Part shown: one piece after another, positions 10,995 to 22,190 of the stretch
Layout of the letters: every line of letters begins with the position of its first letter
Numbering within the stretch: position 1 is the first letter of the stretch
Assembly (NCBI GenBank): GCA_023663345.1
Contig: JAMPHR010000002.1
Location: 62,001 to 126,000, forward strand
Length of the DNA stretch: 64,000 nucleotides
DNA from: Paenibacillus sp.
Lineage (GTDB): Bacteria; Bacteroidota; Bacteroidia; Bacteroidales; Muribaculaceae
Reading direction: 5' to 3'
Made by a program: the position numbers and the translations under genes
Notes under the pieces: generated by a model
Told to the model about the DNA's origin: nothing
The model's input: the letters and a program-made list of their open reading frames with translations, nothing else
Databases searched by the model: none

Positions 10995-11564
10995 ATGCCT
11001 GATTATGACGATATATTTGCCTCATTCGTGAAGGGCGATATCAAGCCGTTGTACACCCATGTATTTCCGGCTCTGTTGCGCTATGCCCGTAAACTTACGG
11101 GTGATCAGCTGGGGTATCTGGCCAAGGATTGCGTGCAGGATGCCATTTTCCAGTGCTATATGCACAGGAAAGATTATAAGGATATGGCTCATTGGCGTAA
11201 CGCTCTGTTCATGAGCATACGCAACCGGGTGATTGATCTTATGCGCAAGGCTAATTGTGATCAGGACTACCTGGCCCACTTTACTCTCATCAGCGATGAT
11301 GTGGAAAAGGATGTGTCACTGGCGATAATATACCAGGATGCTCTCGATGTTATATATGCGGCCGTGGACGCATTGCCTGAGGAATATAGAGAGCTTTTCC
11401 GATTGAGTTTTGAACAGGGGCTGAAAATTGCTGAGATAGCCGAGATGATGCATGTGTCGGAAATCACAGTGAAGAAACGCAAGGCTCGTATGCTTGAGAA
11501 GATCCGCCGTATCCTTGGATCGGATATTGACAATTATATAATATTCCTGCTGTTGGCGGCTTGA
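10995..11564 (+). CDS. ECF sigma-70 factor (FecI/Bacteroidetes type)
   Basis: 189-residue ECF sigma factor with region 2 (LAKDCVQDAIFQCYMHRKDYKD, HWRNALFMSIRNRVIDLMR) and region 4 containing the helix-turn-helix KIAEIAEMMHVSEITVKKRK. Divergent FecR partner at 9668-10846. Promoter matches the housekeeping signature, so sigma synthesis itself is probably constitutive and control is through the anti-sigma factor. Paralogue of the protein at 3920-4516. ATG at 10995 fits the family length. Confidence 0.94.
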   Translation: MPDYDDIFASFVKGDIKPLYTHVFPALLRYARKLTGDQLGYLAKDCVQDAIFQCYMHRKDYKDMAHWRNALFMSIRNRVIDLMRKANCDQDYLAHFTLISDDVEKDVSLAIIYQDALDVIYAAVDALPEEYRELFRLSFEQGLKIAEIAEMMHVSEITVKKRKARMLEKIRRILGSDIDNYIIFLLLAA

Positions 11565-11588
11565 GTATATGCGGTAGAATATAATGAG

Positions 11589-11628
11589 AGCCGGGCCATG
11601 TACCTTGTGATGGGTATGGCCCGGCTTT
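11589..11628. terminator. Bidirectional hairpin terminator after hisIE and sigma gene
   Basis: Stem AGCCGGGCCAT (11589-11599) with ATGGCCCGGCT (11616-11626), extended by TACC/GGGT pairing in the loop, followed by TTT on the plus strand. Lies between convergent 3' ends of the sigma gene (11564) and the his operon (11660). Confidence 0.7.
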
Positions 11629-11659
11629 AGGGTAGTTATAAGGTTGTCGTTGTTTGGGA

Positions 11660-12259
11660 TCAGGAGTGGCGGTTGAGGAGTTCGCGTTCGATGGTGGAGA
11701 GGGGGACGGACATCTGCTCGAGGAGGACGAGGTAGTGGTACATGAGGTCGGCGGCTTCGTAGATGAAGCGGTCGCGGTTGCCGTCGACGGCTTCGATGCC
11801 GGCTTCGATGGATTCTTCGCCTACTTTCTGGGCGATTTTTTTTACCCCTTTGATGAAGAGGCGGGTGGTGTAGGAGTCCTCGGGCATCTCGGCGTGACGG
11901 CGCGAGATGAGTGAGGCGAGGCTACGTATGAATCCGTCCTCGGCGGGAGTGTCGAAACATGCTGTGGTGCCCCGGTGGCATGTGGGACCGGTGGGTATGG
12001 CTTTGATCAGAAGGGTGTCCATGTCGCAGTCGGGGTACATGTCCACGACGCGCAGATGATTGCCCGAGGTTTCGCCTTTGGTCCAGAGGGTCTGGCGGGT
12101 GCGGGAGTAGAATGTGACGAGGCCGAGAGCAACGGTTTTGTCGAAGGCTTCGCAGTTCATGTAGCCGAGCATGAGGACGCGCAGGGTGGTGGCGTCCTGG
12201 ATGATGACGGGAAGAAGCCCGTCGGAGCATTTATCGAGATTGAAGTCGGAAAAAGTCAT
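11660..12259 (-). CDS. hisIE: Bifunctional phosphoribosyl-AMP cyclohydrolase / phosphoribosyl-ATP pyrophosphatase
   Basis: Steps 2 and 3 of histidine synthesis in one 199-residue cytosolic protein. HisI domain about 1-115 shows QDATTLRVLMLGYMN, TFYSRTRQTLWTKGETSGN and the metal-binding DCDMDTLL / GPTCHRG cysteine region; HisE domain about 112-199 shows GVKKIAQKVGEESIEAGIEA and EAADLMYHYLVLL. Last gene of the his operon, 189 bp after hisF; that gap is filled by an inverted array of a 9-bp repeat, so its expression relative to the upstream genes may differ. Normal family length. Confidence 0.97.
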   Translation of the reverse strand: MTFSDFNLDKCSDGLLPVIIQDATTLRVLMLGYMNCEAFDKTVALGLVTFYSRTRQTLWTKGETSGNHLRVVDMYPDCDMDTLLIKAIPTGPTCHRGTTACFDTPAEDGFIRSLASLISRRHAEMPEDSYTTRLFIKGVKKIAQKVGEESIEAGIEAVDGNRDRFIYEAADLMYHYLVLLEQMSVPLSTIERELLNRHS

Positions 12260-12265
12260 ATTTTT

Positions 12266-12455
12266 GAAGTATAGAGTATAAAGTATAGAGTATTTCTAAG
12301 TATAGAGGTTGAAGTATAGAGTATAGAGGGGAGAGTTTTAGTATAGAGTATAGTGTATAGAGAGAGGGCAGGTTGGTGGCATGAGAGCTAATCACTATAC
12401 TCTATACTTTAATCTCTATACTAAAATCCCTCTATACTTAAAAAATCTCTATACT
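12266..12455. repeat. Inverted array of AGTATAGAG / CTCTATACT nonamers between hisF and hisIE
   Basis: Six exact AGTATAGAG copies (starting 12268, 12282, 12299, 12313, 12320, 12340) are followed by four exact reverse complements CTCTATACT (starting 12400, 12414, 12430, 12447). The last copy contains the hisF TAG stop codon. The two half-arrays face each other around a 50-bp centre, so the intercistronic RNA can fold into many alternative hairpins. The same nonamer fills the hisD-hisCB gap. Confidence 0.9.
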
Positions 12456-13213
12456 AAATTCCTAACAGGAATACCCCGTGTTGCGAGGAGGGTTTTGAGG
12501 TCGTGGATGGTGATTTCGCCGTAGTGGAAGATGCTGGCGGCAAGGGCGGCATCGGCTCCGCCGAGGGTGAGCACGTCGGCAATGTCGGCAGGACTTCCCG
12601 CGCCACCCGAGGCGATCACGGGGATGGAGAGGGAGGATGTGAGACGGCGGTAGAGGTCGCAGGGGTAGCCCGAGCGGGTGCCGTCGTGGTCCATGGAGGT
12701 GAACAGTATCTCGCCGGCTCCGCGCTCCTGAGCCTCGCGGGCCCACTGGAAGAGTTCGCGGTCGGTGAGGCGTGAGCCTCCGTGGGTGGTGACGTGCCAC
12801 AGACCGTCGTCGCCACTGCGGGCGTCGATGGCTACGACCACAAACTGACTTCCGTATTTCCCGGCAATGTCACTGATGAGTTGCGGATTTTTCACAGCCG
12901 CGCTGTTGATGGATATTTTGTCGGCCCCGGCGTCGAGCAACGAGGCGGCATCATCAAGCGAGGATATACCTCCCCCCACGGTGAAGGGGATGTTCACGCG
13001 GTCGGCCACGCGCTCCACAAGGCGGGTGAAAGTGCCACGCCCCTCGCGTGAGGCCGAGATGTCGAGATACACCAGCTCATCGGCCCCATCGAGGGCATAG
13101 CGAGCTCCTAATTCCACCGGGTCACCTACATCGGCAAGTCCCTCGAAGTTAATGCCTTTCACGGTGCGGCCATTCTTCACGTCGAGGCAGGGTATGATGC
13201 GTTTAGTGAGCAT
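12449..13213 (-). CDS. hisF: Imidazole glycerol phosphate synthase cyclase subunit
   Basis: TIM-barrel cyclase that, with HisH, converts PRFAR plus glutamine-derived ammonia to imidazole glycerol phosphate and AICAR. 254 residues, standard length. Seen: [18 protein letters not shown] with the first catalytic Asp (residue 10), FTVGGGI phosphate loop, VVAIDAR with the second catalytic Asp, and ASGGAG near the C terminus. Its start overlaps the hisA end by 11 bp, implying translational coupling. Its TAG stop codon is the first three bases of a TAGTATAGAG repeat. Confidence 0.98.
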
Positions 13214-13937
13214 TTTCTGAGAATTTCTGTAGTTCGGAAAGAGTGATATGCCCCTCGTAGAGCGCCTTGCCCACGATCACGCGGTGCAGACCGAGGGTGT
13301 CGAGTTTCTCGATGTCGGCCATCGAGGATATGCCTCCCGACACGGTGAAAGTGATGTCGGGATGAGTGTCGCGCAGGGTGGTGTAGAGGTCGAAGTTTGG
13401 ACCCTGGAGCATACCGTCGCGCGAGATGTCGGTGACGATTACCTGGGAGAGCCCGAGGGGACGGAAACGGCGTATGAGATCGTCGGCGGTGAGATCCTCC
13501 TCATCGGCAGTCCATCCGCTCACGGCTATACGTCCGTCGCGCATGTCGGCACCGAGTATCATGGTGTCGCCGCCATACCGGCTGAGCCAATGGTTGAACA
13601 GCAGGGGCTGGCGGGCGGCCACACTGCCTATCACGGCCCATGAGCCTCCGGCATTGAACAGATCGCGCAGGTCCTGATCGGTCTTCAGGCCTCCGCCCCA
13701 CTCGATGAGGGCACCGTCGACGGCAGCCATCTTCTCGAGGGTGGTGAGCGCCGAGGGGTGGCCCAGGCGAGCGCCGGTGAGATCGACGGCGTGTACACGG
13801 GTGAAGCCGTGGTCGACGAAGCGTTTCACCATGTCGACGGGCGAGGGGGAATAGGTGGTCTGCGTGGCATAATCACCCTTGGTGAGCCTCACGCATTTGC
13901 CGTCGATAATGTCGATGGCGGGAATTATTTCGATCAT
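13203..13937 (-). CDS. hisA: ProFAR isomerase (phosphoribosylformimino-AICAR-P isomerase)
   Basis: TIM-barrel isomerase for step 4 of histidine synthesis, 244 residues. Catalytic Asp in [20 protein letters not shown] (residue 8) and the second Asp near residue 129 ([15 protein letters not shown]), with phosphate-binding VSGGIS and [10 protein letters not shown] late in the barrel. Overlaps hisH upstream by 4 bp (ATGA) and hisF downstream by 11 bp, a tightly coupled hisHAF block. Normal length. Confidence 0.98.
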
Positions 13938-14527
13938 AGCTGGAGGAAGTTTCTGAGGATTCGTTCACCCACGTCGCCACTTTTTTCGGGGTGGAACTGG
14001 GTGCCGTAGAAGTTTTCATACTTGAGTGCCGCGCTGAACATCATCCCCTCCTCGCCGAAGCGGGTGGTGGCGATGGTGTCGGGGCACAGGTGGGCGAAAT
14101 AGGAGTGGACAAAGTAGACGTAGGAGCCGGGGGCTATCCCCTTGAACAGACCTTTCTCGAGATTGTGGATGGAGTTCCAGCCCATGTGTGGCACCTTGTC
14201 GGCCGGTCCGGGGGTGAAACGGCGCACGTGGGCGTCGAATATGCCGAGCCCCTCGGCGTCCCCCTCGGCTGTGTCGCGACACATCATCTGCATCCCCACG
14301 CATATTCCCAACACCGGACGGCGCAGGTCGCGTATCACGCTGTCGAGTCCCGACTGGCGCAGACGGGCGAGGGCTTCGCCGCAATGTCCCACGCCGGGGA
14401 GCAACACGCGGTCGGCCCGGCGTATGGTGTCGGGGTCGGCTGTGAGTGTCCATTCGGCCCCTATGCGGGAGAGGGCGTTTTCGACCGAACGGAGATTGCC
14501 GGTGGAGTAATCTATAATTGCTACCAT
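13934..14527 (-). CDS. hisH: Imidazole glycerol phosphate synthase glutamine amidotransferase subunit
   Basis: Class I glutaminase supplying ammonia to HisF, 197 residues. Catalytic triad is visible: Cys in VLGICVGMQMM (about 78) and the His/Glu of TQFHPEKSGD near the C terminus; oxyanion strand LPGVGHCGEA. Ends with a 4-bp overlap with hisA. The upstream gap to hisCB (91 bp) is made of an octamer array plus degenerate copies of the hisCB 3' end. Confidence 0.98.
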   Translation of the reverse strand: MVAIIDYSTGNLRSVENALSRIGAEWTLTADPDTIRRADRVLLPGVGHCGEALARLRQSGLDSVIRDLRRPVLGICVGMQMMCRDTAEGDAEGLGIFDAHVRRFTPGPADKVPHMGWNSIHNLEKGLFKGIAPGSYVYFVHSYFAHLCPDTIATTRFGEEGMMFSAALKYENFYGTQFHPEKSGDVGERILRNFLQL

Positions 14528-14530
14528 ATA

Positions 14531-14570
14531 TTTATGGGTTTATGGGTTTATAGGTTTATAGGTTTATGGG
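14531..14570. repeat. Five-copy 8-bp tandem repeat TTTATRGG
   Basis: Five back-to-back octamers: TTTATGGG (14531, 14539, 14563) and TTTATAGG (14547, 14555), ending 4 bp upstream of the hisH start codon. On the mRNA this is CCYATAAA repeated immediately before the initiator, so copy-number change would alter the hisH ribosome loading region. Units are perfectly 8 bp apart. Confidence 0.92.
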
Positions 14571-14574
14571 CATT

Positions 14575-14627
14575 TCATATTAGACCTATTATATTATCCC
14601 TTTATATTATCCCCGATATCATATTAT
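14575..14627. repeat. Degenerate TYATATTA copies starting at the hisCB stop codon
   Basis: TTATATTAT followed by CCC recurs at 14589-14597 and 14602-14610, with TCATATTAT at 14619-14627 (its TCA is the hisCB TGA stop) and a decayed TCATATTA at 14575-14582. It looks like serial duplication of the hisCB 3' end. Confidence 0.65.
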
Positions 14628-16271
14628 ACCCTTGGAGGAGGGGAGGGTGTAGTGAAACGGGTCACGGCGTATGGCCATCTTGAGGGCGCGGGCTGTGGCC
14701 TTGAATATACCCTCGATGATGTGGTGGCAGTTGTCGCCGGTGGCCGAGATGTGGAGGTTGGCGCGAAGGGCCGAGGCGAACGACTGGAAGAAGTGGCTGT
14801 ACATCTCGGTGGGAGTGTCGCCCACATATTCGCGGTCGAGTGTCACGTCCCACTTGAAGTCGATGCGTCCTCCAAGGTCTATCAGCACCATTGCCCGGCT
14901 CTCATCCATAGGAAGCACGAATCCGTATCGCTCTATTCCGCGCTTGTCGCCGAGGGCGGTGCGTATGGCATCGCCGAGGGCTATGGCCACATCCTCCATC
15001 GAGTGGTGCTCGTCGACCTGAAGGTCGCCACGGCAGATGATGTCGAGGGCGAAGCCTCCGTGGTGAGGCAGCTGCGAGAGCATGTGGTCGAAGAATTTCA
15101 GGCCCGTGTCGATCACCGAGGCCGAGGGATCGCCGTCGAGGTCGAGCACGATCTCTATGTCGGTCTCCGAGGTGCGTCGCGTAACCTCGGCCCTTCGTGG
15201 GCTGAGAGTTCGGCTGTCGGTGCCAGAGGTCGCGATGTCGGCGTTGCAGTATTCCGCCACGGCCTTGAGCATACGGTCGTTTTCGGAGCGTGTGCCTATG
15301 GTGATGCGGAGCATTCTTGAGCAGTGGGGCACACGGGTGCGGTTGCGCACCAGCACGCCATGGGCCACGAGGAAGCCATACAGCCCGTCGGCATCCGTCA
15401 CTTTCACAAGCAGGAAATTGGCATCGGAATGATACACACGCTCCACACACGGAAGCCGGTCGAGGCTTTCGGCCACGCGGGTGCGCTCGGCCTTTACCAT
15501 CTCCACCTGAGGGGTGATGTCGCGGTCGAGCTGGCGCATGATCTCGCGCTGGGTGGGTCCGTTGAGGTTGTAGGGATATTTTACGTTGGCAAATATCGCG
15601 GCGATGCGCGGGTCGGCAAAAGCCATGCCTACGCGCAGGTTGGCCAGACCCCACGCCTTGGAGAATGTCTGGAGGACTATGATGTTGGGGTGTGATGCTA
15701 TAAGCGGGAGAGCCGATGGATAGGGGGAGAAGTCGATATATGCCTCGTCCACAGCCACTATGCCGTCGAAATTATCGGCAAGTCGCAAGATATCCTCCGG
15801 AGGCACGGCAAGCCCGGTGGGATTATTGGGCGAGCATACCCATATCACTTTGGTGTGGGGATCAACGGCTTTGAGGATTTCATCGACCGGAAAGGCGAAA
15901 TCAGGCCCCGGTGCTACCTCGCGGTATTCCACATTGTTGATGGCCGCCGCCACGGAATACACGCCGTAGGTGGGCGACATGGCCAGCACATTGTCGATGC
16001 CCGGCTCGCAGAATATACGGTAGATGAGGTCGATGGCCTCGTCACTGCCGGCTCCGCCAATGAACACGGTGGAGGGATCCACCCCCTTCAGCTCGCCGAT
16101 GCGTTGCTTCAGCTGTCGGTGGCGAGGGTCGGGATAGCGGTTGAATCCGGTGTGAAACGGTGATTCGTTAGCGTCGATAAACACGCTTATATCTCCCCCC
16201 TTGAACTCATCGCGTGCGGTGGAGTAGGGGCTCAGGGCGAGGATATTTGGACGGACGTACTTAAGTGGCAT
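14619..16271 (-). CDS. hisCB: Fused histidinol-phosphate aminotransferase - imidazoleglycerol-phosphate dehydratase
   Basis: A 550-residue fusion of two consecutive histidine-pathway enzymes. Residues 1-342 are a PLP-dependent HisC (substrate loop IDANESPF, CSPNNPTG, VDEAYIDF, PLP Lys205 in TFSKAWGLANLRVG, Arg in LRITIG). A short linker (343-358) leads to HisB 359-550 (RRTSETDIEI, FFDHMLSQLPHHGGF, DEHHSMEDVAIALG, GDNCHHIIEGIFKATARAL). HisB makes imidazole-acetol phosphate and HisC aminates it, so the product could pass directly. The HAD-type histidinol-phosphatase domain common in bifunctional HisB proteins is absent, and no other phosphatase is in the operon, so that step must be encoded elsewhere. 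No frameshift or internal start is needed to read through. Confidence 0.96.
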   Translation of the reverse strand: MPLKYVRPNILALSPYSTARDEFKGGDISVFIDANESPFHTGFNRYPDPRHRQLKQRIGELKGVDPSTVFIGGAGSDEAIDLIYRIFCEPGIDNVLAMSPTYGVYSVAAAINNVEYREVAPGPDFAFPVDEILKAVDPHTKVIWVCSPNNPTGLAVPPEDILRLADNFDGIVAVDEAYIDFSPYPSALPLIASHPNIIVLQTFSKAWGLANLRVGMAFADPRIAAIFANVKYPYNLNGPTQREIMRQLDRDITPQVEMVKAERTRVAESLDRLPCVERVYHSDANFLLVKVTDADGLYGFLVAHGVLVRNRTRVPHCSRMLRITIGTRSENDRMLKAVAEYCNADIATSGTDSRTLSPRRAEVTRRTSETDIEIVLDLDGDPSASVIDTGLKFFDHMLSQLPHHGGFALDIICRGDLQVDEHHSMEDVAIALGDAIRTALGDKRGIERYGFVLPMDESRAMVLIDLGGRIDFKWDVTLDREYVGDTPTEMYSHFFQSFASALRANLHISATGDNCHHIIEGIFKATARALKMAIRRDPFHYTLPSSKGII

Positions 16272-16293
16272 CTTGATCTTGTTATACTAAAAA

Positions 16294-16337
16294 CTCTATA
16301 CTATTTTCTCTATACTCTATACTTTATACTCTATACT
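16294..16337. repeat. CTCTATACT nonamer array between hisD and hisCB
   Basis: Four exact copies of CTCTATACT (starting 16294, 16308, 16315, 16329) in the 64-bp gap. The rightmost copy includes the hisD TAG stop codon (minus strand TAGTATAGAG). Same unit as at 12266-12455, more than 3.8 kb away. Confidence 0.9.
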
Positions 16338-17610
16338 ATCCCAATCTCACTGTCACAGCCGCAACGTGGGCGTCGAGACCCTCGGCTGTGGCCATGGCGG
16401 TGATCACCGGGGCGAGGGAGCGGAGGCCGTCAGCTGTCAGCTCCTGGAACGTGATCTTGCGCATATAGCTGTCGATGTTAACTCCGCTCATTGACCGCGC
16501 CCATCCGCCGGTGGGGAGAGTGTGGTTGGTGCCCGATGCGTAGTCGCCCGCGCTCTCGGGGGAATAGTTTCCGATGAACACGCTTCCTGCCGCGGTGATG
16601 CCCGAGGCTACGTCCCAGGGATCGGACATGGAGATGATGAGGTGTTCCGAGGCATAGAGGTTGGCAAACTCGGTCATATCCTCGCGCGATGGGAGTACAA
16701 TGATGCGGCTGCGTGACAGCGAGCCCTCCACCAGTTCGCGACGTGACAGCAGGGCCGTCTGTCGCTCAACCTCCTCTGCCACGGCCGATGCGAGCCGGGG
16801 TGAATCGCACAGGGCTATGGCCTGACTGTCAGGGCCATGTTCGGCCTGCGAGAGCATGTCGGCGGCCACAAATGCCGGCGAGGCTGTGTCATCGGCCATG
16901 ATCATCACCTCGCTCGGACCGGCCGGCATGTCAATGGCCGTCACGGTCGAGACGAGCTGTTTGGCCTTGGTGACGAAACGGTTGCCGGGGCCGAATATCT
17001 TGTCAACCCGCGCGATGGATTCCGTGCCGTAGGCCATAGCCGCTATGGCCTGCGCTCCTCCCACCTTATATATACGGTCCACGCCGGCCACACGGGCGGC
17101 ATAGAGTATCTCGGGAGAGATAGGATGCGAGCCTGACGTGGGGGTACACATTATCACCTCGGGACATCCGGCCAGACGGGCAGGAATCGCGAGCATGAGC
17201 ACTGTGGAGAACAGCGGGGCGCGTCCCCCTGGGATATATAGCCCCACTCGCCTGATGGGCACAGCCCGCTGCAGGCAACGGACTCCGGGCGCGGTCTCCA
17301 CCTCCACCGGGGCCGGAAGCTGGGCGCGGTGGAAGGCCGAGATATTGGCGGCCGCCGAGTCGATGGCACGGGCCACCTCGGCGGGCACCCGTGCTATGGC
17401 CTCGGCGATCTCCTCATCCGACACGAGCAGGGAGTCGATCTCCGCGCCGTCAAATTGCCTGGCGTAGTCGATCAGAGCCTTGTCGCCCCCTTCGCGCACT
17501 CCGGCTACTATACGCTCCACGGCCTCGGTGACCTGCGGATCATCGGCCGGAATATTTCGGGCGGTGAGGGCCGTCCATTCTTTTCTCTCAGGATTTATTA
17601 TGATATTCAT
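16336..17610 (-). CDS. hisD: Histidinol dehydrogenase
   Basis: NAD- and zinc-dependent oxidation of histidinol to histidine, last two steps of the pathway. 424 residues, standard length. Diagnostic features: VYIPGGRAPLFSTVLM, KVGGAQAIAAMAYG, KIFGPGNRFVTKAKQ, the zinc-ligand segment DMLSQAEHGPDSQAI and GTNHTLPTGGWARSMSGV. Second gene of the operon, 16 bp after hisG. Its stop codon is embedded in the first repeat copy of the following array. Confidence 0.98.
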   Translation of the reverse strand: MNIIINPERKEWTALTARNIPADDPQVTEAVERIVAGVREGGDKALIDYARQFDGAEIDSLLVSDEEIAEAIARVPAEVARAIDSAAANISAFHRAQLPAPVEVETAPGVRCLQRAVPIRRVGLYIPGGRAPLFSTVLMLAIPARLAGCPEVIMCTPTSGSHPISPEILYAARVAGVDRIYKVGGAQAIAAMAYGTESIARVDKIFGPGNRFVTKAKQLVSTVTAIDMPAGPSEVMIMADDTASPAFVAADMLSQAEHGPDSQAIALCDSPRLASAVAEEVERQTALLSRRELVEGSLSRSRIIVLPSREDMTEFANLYASEHLIISMSDPWDVASGITAAGSVFIGNYSPESAGDYASGTNHTLPTGGWARSMSGVNIDSYMRKITFQELTADGLRSLAPVITAMATAEGLDAHVAAVTVRLG

Positions 17611-17626
17611 TGTGTGGTGGTCTGGG

Positions 17627-18478
17627 CTATCTGATTATATTTTCGAGGTTGAGGATGAGGATGTCCTCGGCGCCTATCTCCTTGAGCTGTTCTATTTTCT
17701 CCCACAGTTCGCTCTCGGGGATCACCACGTGGAGCGAGCACCATTCGGGATCAGTAAGCGGAAGCAGGGTGGGGCTCTTCATGCCTGGGAGTATCTTCAC
17801 GGCCTGATCCACGGCTGTGCGGGGCAGATTCATGAGCACATACTTCATGCCACGGCTGTCGAGGATGGAGTTGAGGCGGAATTTCAGTTTGTCCAGATCG
17901 GCCCGCTTCTCCTCGGGAAGTCCGGGGGTAGCGATCAGCACAGCTTCGGAGAAAAACACCTGCTCCACCTCGCGCAGACCGTTCTGTATGAGGGTACCGC
18001 CCGATGATACTATGTCAAATATAGCGTCGGACATACCTACAGCCGGGGCTATCTCCACCGATCCTGCTATCTCGTGGATCTCGGCCGAGATACCGTTTTC
18101 CGCGAAGAAGCTCCGCAGGATATTGGGATAGGAGGTGGCTATGCGCTTGCCGTTGAGCCATTCGGTGCCGGTGTAGTCCACCTCGCGGGGCACGGCTATG
18201 GAGATGCGGCACGCCCCGAAGCCGAGCGGGAGTATCTGTTCCACTTTCTCCCCCTTTTCAGTGATCTCGTTCATGCCCACTATTCCTATGTCGGCCACTC
18301 CCATTGCCACCGCCTGGGGAATATCGTCGTCGCGGAGATAGAGTATCTCCATCGGGAATCCTTTGGCCTTGGTGATGAGTTTGCGGTTGCCCGACGATGC
18401 GCTTATGCCGGCATCGGCGAGGAGATCCATACTTTGTTCGTTTAATCGGCCCTTGGCCTGTATAGCTATCTTAAGCAT
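17627..18478 (-). CDS. hisG: ATP phosphoribosyltransferase (long form)
   Basis: First committed step of histidine synthesis. The ATG at 18478 gives MLKIAIQAKGRLNEQSMDLL, the normal HisG beginning, and 283 residues. The C-terminal HisG_C regulatory (ACT-like) domain is present (about 205-283, WCSLHVVIPESELWEKIEQL), so this is the long, hexameric, histidine-inhibited form that needs no HisZ. An in-frame upstream TTG at 18532 lies inside the attenuator stem and is rejected as a start. First structural gene of the operon, 24 bp after the terminator T-tract. Confidence 0.97.
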   Translation of the reverse strand: MLKIAIQAKGRLNEQSMDLLADAGISASSGNRKLITKAKGFPMEILYLRDDDIPQAVAMGVADIGIVGMNEITEKGEKVEQILPLGFGACRISIAVPREVDYTGTEWLNGKRIATSYPNILRSFFAENGISAEIHEIAGSVEIAPAVGMSDAIFDIVSSGGTLIQNGLREVEQVFFSEAVLIATPGLPEEKRADLDKLKFRLNSILDSRGMKYVLMNLPRTAVDQAVKILPGMKSPTLLPLTDPEWCSLHVVIPESELWEKIEQLKEIGAEDILILNLENIIR

Positions 18479-18501
18479 GTTGTTTTGATAAGTTGGTACA
18501 C

Positions 18502-18535
18502 AAAAAAATGATTGCCCTTGTGGTAAAGGCAATCA
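18502..18535 (-). terminator. his attenuator: intrinsic terminator
   Basis: On the transcript, TGATTGCC (18535-18528) pairs perfectly with GGCAATCA (18516-18509) around an 11-nt loop, followed directly by seven U (18508-18502). It stands 24 bp before the hisG start codon and after the His-rich leader peptide, i.e. where an attenuator terminator should be. Confidence 0.9.
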
Positions 18536-18605
18536 ATATGGGGTAATATTAAAATGCAGGAAAAAGGTAGATGGTTTTGCCTGATATCACACTATATGGA
18601 TTGCC
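18528..18605 (-). promoter_or_regulatory. his attenuator: alternative antiterminator pairing
   Basis: The segment GGCAATCCATAT (18605-18594), inside leader-peptide codons 13-17, can pair with ATATTGATTGCC (18539-18528): 11 of 12 positions match. This uses the same bases as the 5' arm of the terminator, so the two structures exclude each other. A ribosome stalled on the His codons (18634-18614) would leave the segment free; one reaching the stop codon (18587) would cover it. The switching logic is inference from known attenuators. Confidence 0.8.
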
Positions 18606-18643
18606 GACTGCTCATGATGATGGTGGCCATGATGGAGAGTCAT
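18587..18643 (-). CDS. hisL: His-operon leader peptide, seven His codons in 18
   Basis: Short leader gene encoding MTLHHGHHHHEQSAIHIV then TGA. His occupies codons 4, 5, 7, 8, 9, 10 and 16. An in-frame ATG at 18679 would extend it to 30 residues with one more His; that start follows an A/T-rich stretch typical of Bacteroidetes and cannot be excluded. Located about 40-75 nt after a predicted transcription start and 52 nt before the terminator stem. A His run followed by a terminator before hisG is the hallmark of classical attenuation; the gene's function is control, not the peptide product. Confidence 0.9.
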   Translation of the reverse strand: MTLHHGHHHHEQSAIHIV

Positions 18644-18725
18644 GACTGCCGAAGAGTTATGTCGGTTAGTGCGATACATATATTTATTAAACAAACTGGA
18701 TATGATATATTGTTTGTTTCGGTCG

Positions 18726-18733
18726 CAAAAGTA
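18726..18733 (-). promoter_or_regulatory. Predicted his operon promoter (-7 box)
   Basis: TACTTTTG on the minus strand matches TAnnTTTG exactly. A -33 TTTG is not obvious 19-21 bp upstream, so the box stands alone. Transcription would start near 18718 and give a leader of about 240 nt before hisG. Confidence 0.6.
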
Positions 18734-18811
18734 CAATAATTTTATCGGAAATATCGCGATTGTGTAAGTGAAAATATTGCAGTATTAATAATTTTTAATG
18801 ATTTGATGTGG

Positions 18812-18838
18812 ATATGGGGCGACATTATCGCACCATAT
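18812..18838. promoter_or_regulatory. 27-bp dyad upstream of the his promoter
   Basis: Quasi-palindrome ATATGG-G-GCGA-cattA-TCGC-A-CCATAT with ten of twelve arm positions paired (outer 6 bp and inner 4 bp perfect). It is 79 bp upstream of the his -7 box and 28 bp from the yebC terminator. Could be a repressor/activator site; no family is recognised. Confidence 0.35.
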
Positions 18839-18866
18839 CATGCGTGATGCGGTCTTATCTTTGCGG

Positions 18867-18918
18867 AAAAAACTCCCCCCGCACACCTGACTTGCGGGAG
18901 CAGGTATGCGGGGGGAGT
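18867..18918 (-). terminator. Intrinsic terminator of pheT-yebC
   Basis: 12-bp perfect stem ACTCCCCCCGCA (18872-18883) with TGCGGGGGGAGT (18907-18918); on the minus strand it is followed by a run of T (18872-18867). Starts 27 bp beyond the yebC stop. Confidence 0.88.
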
Positions 18919-18944
18919 GATGGGGGATGATGGTGGTGGCGGGA

Positions 18945-19685
18945 TTATTCGCCGTCCTCCTCCTTCATGTTGTGGAATACGTTCTGAACGTCCTCGTCCT
19001 CCTCGATCTTCTCGAGAAGCTTCTCGATAGCTGCGCGCTGGTCGGGAGTAACCTCCTTGAGATCGTTGGGGATGCGCTCAAACTCTGAGGAAATGATCTC
19101 GAAACCGTTGTCCTCGAGGTACTTCTGGATATTGGCATACTCCTCGAAAGCACCGTAGAGTACAATCTGCTCGTTGCCGTCCTCATCCTCATCGTGGCCG
19201 AGTTCGTCTACGCCATAGTCGATGAGCTCGAGCTCGAGATCGTCGAGCGACACACCGTCCTTGGGCTGGATCTTGAACACACTCTTGTGATCGAAAAGGA
19301 ATGTGAGCGAACCCTGAGTGCCGAGCGAACCGCCGTGCTTGGTGAAATAGGAGCGAACGTTGGCTACGGTACGGGTATTGTTGTCGGTGGCAGCTTCCAC
19401 GAAGATAGCAATGCCGTGGGGTCCGTATCCCTCGTAGGTGATCTCTTTGTAGTCGCCGGCATCCTTATCGGTAGCCTTCTTGATGGCGCGTTCCACGGTG
19501 TCCTTGGGCATGTTGGCAGCCTTGGCGTTCTGCATGAGGGCGCGTAGGCGGGGGTTGGTGGAGGGATCGGGACCGCCGGCCTTTGCGGCGATGGTGATTT
19601 CCTTGCCTATGCGGGTGAATGTACGGGACATGTTGCCCCAGCGTTTCAGCTTGCGTGCTTTACGGTATTCAAATGCTCTTCCCAT
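18945..19685 (-). CDS. yebC: YebC/PmpR family protein
   Basis: 246-residue cytosolic protein of the YebC family, implicated in transcriptional regulation and, in recent work on the family, in translation of difficult sequences. Typical N terminus MGRAFEYRKARKLKRWGNMS, then FTRIGKEITIAAKAGGPDPSTNPRLR, and a central EGYGPHGIAIFVEAATDN. The acidic C-terminal tail (KIEEDEDVQNVFHNMKEEDGE) is usual. 36 bp downstream of pheT on the same strand, so probably co-transcribed; strong terminator follows. Confidence 0.95.
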   Translation of the reverse strand: MGRAFEYRKARKLKRWGNMSRTFTRIGKEITIAAKAGGPDPSTNPRLRALMQNAKAANMPKDTVERAIKKATDKDAGDYKEITYEGYGPHGIAIFVEAATDNNTRTVANVRSYFTKHGGSLGTQGSLTFLFDHKSVFKIQPKDGVSLDDLELELIDYGVDELGHDEDEDGNEQIVLYGAFEEYANIQKYLEDNGFEIISSEFERIPNDLKEVTPDQRAAIEKLLEKIEEDEDVQNVFHNMKEEDGE

Positions 19686-19721
19686 TGTAGAGAGTTTATA
19701 TTGTGTTTATTGATTGATCGA

Positions 19722-22190
19722 TTAACGCAGTTCGGCTCCGAGTTGCTTGGTGAGGTTGGCGATCACCTTGTTCATCACAGCCTCGATCTGCTTGTCCTGC
19801 AGGGTCTTCTCATCATCCTGAAGTGTGAGGGTGATGGCATAGGACTTCTTGCCTTCGGGGAGGTTCTTGCCCTCGTACACGTCGAAGAGAGCTACCTCCT
19901 TGAGCAGGCGTTTCTCGCTGGCACGTACTGTAGCCTCTACGCGCTCCATGGTCACGCCCTTGTCGAGCAGTAGTGCGAGGTCGCGTTTCACAGCCTGACT
20001 CTTGGGCAGGGGCGAGAAGGTGACCTTCTTCTTGACCGAGAGACCAACGAGTGCATCCCAGTCAAACTCGGCATACATCACCGGTTGCTTGATATCGGCC
20101 TTGTTGAGCAGCTTTTTGGAGAGGATACCCATCGAGCCGAGATATTTGCCTGAGCGTGTGGTGATGTCGAGACCGGCTGCAAAGAGTTCCGAAGCGGTCG
20201 GGACGGTCTTGAGCTCGGCGTTGCTTATGCTGAGTCGGGCGATGATATTTGCCACCACAGCCTTGAGATCGTAGACGGTTACCTCGGCGGCCTGACGTGC
20301 CCATGAGGCGGGACGCAGGAGTCCGGTCATCCACAGGGCCAGACGCGCTCCCTGCTTGTAGGGGGCGAGCACGGCGTCGGCATTGCCGGAGGCCTCAGGG
20401 TTGAAGCTGTACACGTTGCCGAACTCATACATCAGCAGGTCGCTCTCGCGGCGGTTGATGTTGTGCGACAGCGATTCGAGACCTCCGAAGAGGAGGGTCT
20501 GCCTCATCACGTTGAGATCGTTGCTCAGGGGATTGAGGAGCTTGACGCAATGCTCGGCCGGCATCTGGGCGAGGTCGGCGTAGTAAGCCTCGCGGGTGAG
20601 TGAGTTGTTGAGTATCTCGTTGAATCCCTCGCCGGTGAGCTGTTCGCTTATGAGGTTGCGCAGGGTGTTCTCCTGGTCCTCGCGGCTCTTATATGAGAGC
20701 GATGAGTGTACGGTCGAAGAGATCTCCACATTGTTGTAGCCGTAGATGCGGAGCATATCCTCAACCACGTCGCAGGGACGGGTAACGTCCACGCGGTAGG
20801 TGGGCACCTTGACGGCCACATGCTCGGGTGTGATCTCGGTCACTTCCATCTCGAGCGAGCGGAGGATGGATATGATGGTGTCGGCGGGGATCTCCTTGCC
20901 CACAAGACGGGTGGTGTAGTCGAAATCAAGGGTGACTTCGGCGGGATTTATCTTGGTGGGATAGAGGTCGATCTCAGGACCGGTGATGGTGCCTCCGGCA
21001 AGCTCCTTGACCATGAGTGCGGCCAGGCGGAGCACATAGAGGGTATTGTTGGGATCGACACCGCGCTCGAAGCGGAACGATGAGTCGGTGTTGAGGCCGT
21101 GACGGCGGGCTGTCTTGCGCACCGAGGTGGGGTTAAAATATGCGCTCTCGAGGAATACCGAGGTGGTCGATTCGGTTACGCCCGAGTCGAGTCCGCCAAA
21201 TACTCCGGCGATGCACATAGGCTCATGGGCATTGCATATCATCAGGTCGCGCGAGTCGAGGGTGTGTTCCACGCCGTCGAGAGTCACGAACTTCTCGCCC
21301 TGGGTGGCGTTCTTCACTAACACCTCTCCGCCGGCGATCTTGTCGACATCGAAGCAGTGCAGGGGCTGGCCCATGCCGTGGAGCAGGAAGTTGGTGATGT
21401 CCACGATATTGTTGATGGGGCGCAGACCTATGGTCGAAAGCGCGTCCTTAAGCCATTTGGGCGACTCCTTTACGGTGACACCGGTCACGGTGACGCCACA
21501 ATAGCGGGGACAGGCCTGGGGATTCTCCACCTTTACGCTCACGCCTCCGGCAGGAGCCTCCACGGCGTAATACTCTACCGACGGGCGGGTCAGCTCGGTG
21601 GCTTCGGCATGGCAGGCGAGCCAGGCCGAGAGATCGCGGGCCACGCCATAGTGCGAGGCTGCGTCGATGCGGTTGGGGGTGAGATCCACCTCGAGCACGT
21701 AGTCGGAGGTGAGGCCGTAGTACTCGGCTGCGGGTGTGCCAGGCTCTACATCATCCTTGAGCACGATGATGCCATCGTGGGATGTGCCTACGCCTATCTC
21801 ATCCTCGGCACATATCATGCCGAACGATTCCACGCCACGTATCTTGGATTTCTTGATCTGGAACTCCTCGCCTTCGGGACCATACAGGGTGGTGCCCACG
21901 GTGGCTACCACTACGGTCTGTCCGGCGTCGACGTTGGGCGCGCCACACACTATCTGGGTGGCCTCCCCGTCGCCGAGATCTACTGTGGTGATATGGAGAT
22001 GGTCGCTGTTGGGGTGCTCCACGCATGTAAGCACTTTGCCTATGACGATTCCGCGGAGACCTCCGCGTATGGATTCTACCTCTTCGACTCCGCCTGTCTC
22101 AAGACCTATCGAGGTGAGCGTTGCGGCCACTTCCGAGGGAGTGAGATTGAAGTCGAGGTATCTTTTAAGCCAATTATAGGAAATATTCAT
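19722..22190 (-). CDS. pheT: Phenylalanyl-tRNA synthetase beta subunit
   Basis: 822-residue beta chain of the alpha2beta2 PheRS. Domains in order: B1 start MNISYNWLKRYLDF, EMAP/OB tRNA-binding domain about 40-155, B3/B4 editing domain about 215-385 (DITNFLLHGMGQPLHCFD), B5 about 405-480, catalytic-like core to about 700, and C-terminal FDX-ACB anticodon-binding domain (about 727-822, SPLPKSQAVKRDLALLLDKGV). Promoter: -33 TTGG (22242-22245), 20-bp spacer, -7 TATCTTTG (22214-22221), start codon only about 24 bp after the box, so the mRNA leader is very short and no Phe attenuator fits. Confidence 0.98.
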   Translation of the reverse strand: MNISYNWLKRYLDFNLTPSEVAATLTSIGLETGGVEEVESIRGGLRGIVIGKVLTCVEHPNSDHLHITTVDLGDGEATQIVCGAPNVDAGQTVVVATVGTTLYGPEGEEFQIKKSKIRGVESFGMICAEDEIGVGTSHDGIIVLKDDVEPGTPAAEYYGLTSDYVLEVDLTPNRIDAASHYGVARDLSAWLACHAEATELTRPSVEYYAVEAPAGGVSVKVENPQACPRYCGVTVTGVTVKESPKWLKDALSTIGLRPINNIVDITNFLLHGMGQPLHCFDVDKIAGGEVLVKNATQGEKFVTLDGVEHTLDSRDLMICNAHEPMCIAGVFGGLDSGVTESTTSVFLESAYFNPTSVRKTARRHGLNTDSSFRFERGVDPNNTLYVLRLAALMVKELAGGTITGPEIDLYPTKINPAEVTLDFDYTTRLVGKEIPADTIISILRSLEMEVTEITPEHVAVKVPTYRVDVTRPCDVVEDMLRIYGYNNVEISSTVHSSLSYKSREDQENTLRNLISEQLTGEGFNEILNNSLTREAYYADLAQMPAEHCVKLLNPLSNDLNVMRQTLLFGGLESLSHNINRRESDLLMYEFGNVYSFNPEASGNADAVLAPYKQGARLALWMTGLLRPASWARQAAEVTVYDLKAVVANIIARLSISNAELKTVPTASELFAAGLDITTRSGKYLGSMGILSKKLLNKADIKQPVMYAEFDWDALVGLSVKKKVTFSPLPKSQAVKRDLALLLDKGVTMERVEATVRASEKRLLKEVALFDVYEGKNLPEGKKSYAITLTLQDDEKTLQDKQIEAVMNKVIANLTKQLGAELR

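Follow-up and report, generated by a model that had tools for sequence, protein, structure and literature searches.

A predicted ribosome-mediated histidine attenuator before hisG in a Muribaculaceae genome whose closest relatives carry leaderless his operons

We describe an element before hisG that is very probably a ribosome-mediated transcription attenuator of the classical his type. This reading was put forward in an initial annotation of the same DNA and our analysis supports it: every component expected of a classical his attenuator occurs here, in a consistent geometry. The element lies in a window of 64,000 nucleotides (the whole stretch of DNA that was analysed), from a genome of the same genus as Duncaniella muris. 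Sequence and computation show which parts are present, that their pairings exclude one another, how they are placed in a fold model and that relatives have a similar layout; the behaviour in vivo is a prediction.

The operon is encoded on the minus strand. Its first structural gene, hisG (17627-18478; PF01634 and PF08029; ATG at 18478), is followed by hisD, a hisC-hisB(IGPD) fusion, hisH, hisA, hisF and hisIE (11660-17610). The fusion joins the HisC aminotransferase and HisB dehydratase (IGPD) domains in one 550-aa protein (14619-16271, minus strand), in which no phosphatase domain was matched at E<=1e-5. Upstream, yebC (18945-19685, minus strand) is followed by a terminator-like hairpin, read by eye, and is separated from hisG by an intergenic region of 466 nt. 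Past this hairpin, the stretch 18820-18865 is matched over 22-46 nt, at 80-100% identity, in three other parts of the genome and is possibly a repeated intergenic motif.

The promoter -7 box, TACTTTTG, has the form TAnnTTTG and lies at 18726-18733 (minus strand), so that transcription probably starts near 18719. The leader ORF, MTLHHGHHHHEQSAIHIV (18587-18643, minus strand), carries the presumed regulatory codons at positions 4-10 (18614-18634, minus strand), which read His His Gly His His His His, that is, six His in seven codons. Both the box and the leader with its His run had been pointed out in the initial annotation and are present in the sequence; when the 466-nt intergenic region was shuffled 20,000 times, a His cluster this dense arose once, counting any of the three forward frames and requiring no start codon. 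A possible longer ORF of 30 aa, starting MYRTNRHNSSAVMTLHH (18587-18679, minus strand), is in frame with the shorter one, and its ATG at 18679 has an AU-rich context. Because both candidate ATGs, at 18643 and 18679, have a poor start context (1st-4th percentile of homologous starts), we leave the leader start as two candidates; the ATG at 18643 sits inside a hairpin in the unbound fold. An intrinsic terminator, identified by folding and by a terminator scan, stands between this short ORF and hisG (18502-18535, minus strand). It consists of an 11-bp hairpin (18535-18509) and a U7 run (18508-18502). The U7 run before hisG had been recognized correctly, but with an 8-bp stem and 24 nt of spacing; we count 11 pairs, including G-U, and 23 nt between the end of U7 and hisG. 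Terminator-like sites in 11000-20000 occur at chance number (7 found vs 6.4 in shuffles); this one has 11 pairs and seven T. We dropped the idea that a proximal promoter box had left the U-run as a remnant, since no alignment supported it.

Folding of the minus-strand leader, which the initial annotation had called for, gives a minimum-energy structure of -48.9 kcal/mol for 18720-18480 (z -4.17; 0 of 200 shuffles as low) that holds both the terminator and a protector. The annotation had found no convincing protector hairpin; here, segment 1, the protector 5' arm (18661-18677, minus strand), pairs with 18608-18584 through 11 bp (18677-18667 with 18594-18584) and 5 bp (18665-18661 with 18608-18604), a duplex matched by 27 of 20,000 shuffles of its 5' arm. 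The protector 3' arm is also the antiterminator 5' arm, and this segment 2 (18584-18608, minus strand) spans the last leader codons and the stop codon. Segment 3, the antiterminator 3' arm (18528-18549, minus strand), overlaps the 5' arm of the terminator. The proposal that the 12-nt leader segment 18605-18594 pairs at 11 of 12 positions with that arm (18539-18528) is borne out (a duplex as good came up in 285 of 20,000 shuffles and in 66 of 20,000 synonymous recodings), and the antiterminator turns out to be longer than stated, reaching from 18605 to 18528. The RNA 18606-18515, folded alone, forms a single long hairpin of -21.6 kcal/mol in total (2 of 1,000 shuffles as good). Its helices are 18605-18599:18534-18528, 18597-18594:18539-18536 and 18590-18584:18549-18543, and its loop contains a small hairpin (18557-18583, minus strand) that is likewise part of the minimum-energy structure, whether no ribosome or a stalled one is assumed. 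In the fold computation the antiterminator and the terminator exclude each other, and there are three mutually exclusive helices in all. Segment 2 is thus common to protector and antiterminator, and segment 3 to antiterminator and terminator. The predicted pairing follows the 1:2, 2:3 and 3:4 logic of classical attenuators.

In the mechanism that we propose, RNA polymerase would start near 18719 and a ribosome would translate the leader. With ample His-tRNA, the ribosome would reach the stop codon and cover segment 2, so that the antiterminator would be blocked, the terminator would form and transcription would end before hisG. When His-tRNA is scarce, the ribosome would stall in the His cluster with its leading edge just short of 18605, leaving segment 2 free. 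The antiterminator (18605-18584 with 18549-18528) would then form before the 3' arm of the terminator is complete, and the operon would be transcribed. If the leader is not translated, segment 1 would pair with segment 2, making termination the default. The starts of transcription and translation, the co-transcriptional order of these events, the termination itself and the response to histidine are what we infer.

The initial annotation had also predicted that a ribosome stalled at the His codons frees the antiterminator and that one at the stop codon masks it. This agrees with an edge model in which the downstream edge of the ribosome is set at P-site +16, nothing pairs across the ribosome and folding is at equilibrium. 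With the RNA 3' end at 18515, stalls at His codons 4, 5, 7, 8 and 9 free segment 2 from 18605 and give an antiterminator probability of 0.90, and a stall at His codon 10 frees it from 18603 and gives 0.73. A ribosome at the stop codon, or at the lone His codon 16, gives 0.00 for the antiterminator and, after the U-run, 0.96 for the terminator. An earlier fold that only masked the ribosome footprint, superseded by the edge model with its ban on pairing across the ribosome, agreed for the codon 7 stall (antiterminator) and not for codons 4 and 10, where the protector was kept. Once the terminator is fully transcribed, the antiterminator of the stalled state stands at 0.42-0.60 (His codons 4-9) or 0.21 (codon 10). 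Because these end states are nearly balanced, the decision must fall during transcription. The protector is also leaky: the antiterminator still holds 0.60 of the ensemble when no ribosome is present and the 3' end is at 18515. Trust in the edge model is restricted by an E. coli control, in which it did not reproduce the known his switch, the D:E antiterminator reaching 0.95 at the stop codon vs 0.64-0.87 in stalled states (3' end 13 nt before the U-run). The switch was missed because equilibrium folding ignores which hairpin forms first. The E. coli switch depends on an earlier hairpin, whereas that of the window would work by direct masking of segment 2.

Similar elements recur in Bacteroidales. 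We collected hisG upstream regions from 80 loci of named genomes, from 67 of the 70 match rows of a family search (149 genomes; three fragment rows, two of G068 and one of G085, were left out) and from six congener loci. These 153 regions were reduced to 133 distinct ones, the window among them, by removing two that were too short (L029 and L061) and 18 that were duplicates in their last 250 nt. A leader was scored as an ORF of 7-60 codons with a His-cluster score >=3 in the last 350 nt, and terminators were sought in the last 170 nt. By this definition, 73 of the 133 regions carry a His-rich leader ORF, a count inflated, like the others over relatives, by kinship, which it ignores; five shuffled sets gave 2, 2, 0, 2 and 0, and the reverse complement 0 of 133. 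A terminator within 105 nt of hisG, a limit set after seeing the data, is found in 63 of the 73 regions with a leader vs 6 of the 60 without. In 61 of the 73 regions with a leader, no more than 60 nt separate a TAnnTTTG box from the leader ATG (median 21 nt). In leaderless regions the box lies within 60 nt of the hisG ATG instead (25 of 60, median 30 nt), an arrangement seen in only 2 of the 73 leader-bearing ones; shuffles gave 2.6%.

Pairing of the leader with the terminator 5' arm could be tested in 63 of the 73 leaders (eight had no terminator found, and in two the terminator overlapped the leader). It reached p<=0.05 in 34 of them, 19 at p<=0.01, and fell short of p<=0.05 in the other 29; the window stands at 0.012. 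The pairing starts 11-22 nt after the first nucleotide of the cluster's last His codon in 56 of 63 vs 27% when shuffled, a range set after seeing the data. The recurrence of leader, terminator and pairing makes it likely that a large group of Bacteroidales his leaders work by the mechanism we propose for the window. The initial annotation had noted that the genome does not depend on Shine-Dalgarno signals, and this fits the starts examined: SD-like 4-mers stand before the hisG start in 6 of 133 cases and before the leader start in 3 of 73 (shuffles 4.7%). A His-rich ORF before hisG was also seen in a Sphingobacteriaceae record (L082) and in an unclassified bacterium (L081), so such leaders may extend past Bacteroidales.

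The window shares with the leaders of Alistipes, other Rikenellaceae and Muribaculaceae the gene that follows, a similar layout and a similar spacing between antiterminator and last His codon. It differs in detail: in Alistipes the leaders finish with an antiterminator of the GGGGUAG type and the terminator is GCUCACCCC, neither of which is found in the window, and the GCCGGCUUCC-type terminator of many Muribaculaceae leaders is likewise absent from it. Covariation, which had been suggested as a check, gave a divided answer in an alignment of 9 of the 16 Alistipes-clade leaders. In the terminator, 3 of the 9 sequences have a C-G pair replaced by U-A, a double change that preserves the pairing. 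The antiterminator, which was derived from one of them, is 93.7% paired vs 36.5-62.2% when slid, but its two double-changed pairs were matched by 107 of 500 shuffles and are no excess. For the window copy, covariation is unavailable because no congener carries the element.

A scan of the window with Rfam gave no match at gathering, the T-box riboswitch included, and the six sub-threshold matches in 18400-18800 all belong to unrelated families. The His_leader family (RF00514, gathering 49 bits) has no match at the his locus of the window and none above cut-off in the 27 congeners; sub-threshold matches at E<=1 occur in 20 of these 27, none at the window's his locus. It also matched none of 19 other Bacteroidales leader loci (19 of 72 were run), vs 131.6 bits for E. 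coli. By this search the element is not a member of RF00514, although it would work like the his attenuator of E. coli and Salmonella. We also built a covariance model from the nine Alistipes leaders. The 68 sources on which it was run comprise the window, seven leaderless loci and, out of the 72 other leader loci, 60, among them L021, which is itself in the model. It found 41 of the 60 leader loci at E<=1 (13.7-149.6 bits), 27 of the 60 at E<=0.01, and none of the seven leaderless ones.

The phylogenetic setting of the window is quite different from this wide recurrence. The HisG tree (96 rows, with 37 upstream-only loci left out) came from a quick search with SH-aLRT supports only and has several long branches. 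It places the window in a group of 49 rows (support 90, not starred), 47 of which have no leader. The smallest starred set that holds the window adds only two loci, L005 (G117) and L006 (G151), both leaderless. Both genomes have a hisC-hisB fusion like that of the window, and among the 27 congeners searched a full-length match to the fusion was found only in the window and these two; in the nine other hisG-bearing congeners, the HisC and HisB parts are separate matches. L005 also shares the yebC-hisG neighbourhood, and a motif search found the end of yebC before hisG in no other upstream region besides the window. In its yebC-hisG intergenic region, which is 169 nt long, a plain promoter box precedes hisG, and this region cannot be aligned with the 466 nt of the window. 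The HisG proteins of Muribaculaceae seem to fall into two deep types, one about 67-87% identical to that of the window and mostly leaderless, the other about 50-58% identical and mostly with a leader. The sole other leader of the 49-row clade is an ORF ending SHHWHHRHCAHSGL in L094 (G108, 1150-1500), with a promoter box before it. The scan found no terminator there and the Alistipes model gives it 2.2 bits, so it may not be an attenuator.

The initial annotation had held that hisG relatives that keep the operon but lack both the His codons and the pairing would speak against the attenuator. Literally, such relatives are what we found: all 11 congeners with hisG are devoid of a His-rich leader ORF, as are the 47 clade rows. 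Leaderless regions mostly lack the terminator as well (6 of 60 have one), and we read them as unattenuated operons, not as evidence against the element.

An independent origin of the attenuator of the window appears probable from these data. Our tentative reading is a loss of the attenuator at the base of the Muribaculaceae HisG clade, followed by its de novo re-invention in a single Duncaniella lineage once this had separated from the species that has the same yebC-hisG neighbourhood and hisC-hisB fusion. The HisG tree alone cannot separate gain from loss. It is possible, if somewhat doubtful, that the attenuator was inherited, the ancestor of the HisG clade having had it, the lineage of the window having kept it and the relatives having lost it many times. 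In favour of this, His-rich leaders occur widely in Bacteroidales and a good number of them seem to be homologous, given how many the Alistipes model finds; the same model finds the window in the correct register, weakly (14.5 bits, E 0.48). However, this model gives 11.5 bits to the his leader of E. coli, which is unrelated, so the score of the window is hardly evidence of descent, and ancestry of the Alistipes type is not visible. The low score does not argue for an independent origin either, as 19 of the 60 other leaders fall below any match and it is not distinctive. The tree speaks against inheritance. With 47 of 49 clade rows leaderless, retention from the clade ancestor needs at least eight losses on this quick tree, an approximate count because several forks are weak. 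The alternative is one loss and two gains, or one gain if L094 is not real. A single loss, with all 47 leaderless rows as one clade, was rejected (p-AU 1.3e-5; the group was chosen after seeing the tree). In addition, although yebC also precedes hisG in L005, the two intergenic regions cannot be aligned. Repeated loss would be a less parsimonious history than either a putative independent re-invention or the putative import of a cassette from an unsampled species.

Of these two, import of a promoter-leader cassette by recombination seems unlikely. It would account for a yebC-hisG intergenic region that differs as a whole from that of L005 (466 vs 169 nt) between related flanking genes, but the leader-region DNA has only short matches in the genomes searched. 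Besides the window itself, the search of 27 congeners returned one 26-nt match, inside a gene for a His-rich protein, and that of 397 family genomes, with the two best candidates per genome scored, returned only two matches of 32-33 nt. Import and multiple loss are both kept as serious rivals of an independent origin.

Two further explanations deny that the element is an attenuator at all. It is very improbable that the His-rich ORF encodes a small metal-binding or otherwise functional peptide and that the terminator belongs to a separate small RNA: other proteins do have His-rich stretches, and a short DNA match in G157 lies in a gene for such a protein, but the peptides before other hisG genes share little beyond His and small size, the spacing between His cluster and antiterminator is kept, and leader and terminator co-occur before hisG. 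A chance assembly of ORF and hairpin is likewise very improbable, for all the poor start context, the chance number of terminator-like sites in the region and the lack of conservation of this copy in congeners, because His cluster (1/20,000), protector (27/20,000) and antiterminator region (2/1,000) are each rare in shuffles and stand in the right order before hisG.

The window element resembles hisL of E. coli and Salmonella in its leader with clustered His codons, its alternative pairings, its terminator before hisG and its extra hairpin between leader and terminator; the attenuation model for these species is set out in PMC1183508. Unlike hisL, the window has a His run broken by Gly, no SD sequence, a TAnnTTTG box and an antiterminator that reaches the last leader codons. 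In Firmicutes, according to PMC9413887, his attenuators of the Bacillus cereus group, of C. difficile and its kin, and of Erysipelotrichales have short leaders with three to five consecutive His codons, a terminator and an antiterminator; the short His leader and both hairpins are shared with the window, a likeness by description to another phylum. Bacteroid-trp RNA (RF01692), which we take to be a Trp attenuator, concerns a different operon and has no match in the window or in any of the 27 congeners. PMC2864571 presents it as a putative cis-regulatory RNA of Bacteroidetes. PMC9723704 reports strong clues for leader-peptide attenuation before amino-acid biosynthesis operons of Flavobacterium, and PMC7366714 mentions leader-like short ORFs in B. 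thetaiotaomicron. On origins, PMC2965389 discusses whether leader ORFs emerged repeatedly or spread horizontally, and PMC3766115 assumes that amino acid attenuators arose in gamma-proteobacteria and were seldom transferred. Among the matches listed in a search of the open-licence literature (titles and the beginnings of abstracts), no description of a his attenuator in Bacteroidales was found. The abstract of Vitreschak et al. 2004 reportedly names Bacteroidetes/Chlorobi among the groups with candidate attenuators, so this kind may already be in print.

The hisG gene itself is patchily distributed in the family. It was not found in 15 of 27 congeners nor in 80 of 149 family genomes, or 64 of 109 when only genomes >=90% complete and <=5% contaminated are counted. 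Its apparent absence from so many genomes suggests that histidine auxotrophy is widespread in the gut family Muribaculaceae.

Altogether, our results point to leader-peptide attenuation as a common control of histidine synthesis in Bacteroidales. This control would operate at starts that, where examined, bear no Shine-Dalgarno signal, and the Rfam His_leader model is blind to all 19 leader loci on which it was tried. The kind of switch is classical, and the copy in the window belongs to a lineage whose relatives are without it, so it may have evolved anew. With the same operon under a plain promoter in close relatives, the locus lends itself to studying the gain or loss of such a switch. If re-invention de novo is the true history, it would represent a recent and traceable birth of a complete switch of leader peptide, protector, antiterminator and terminator.
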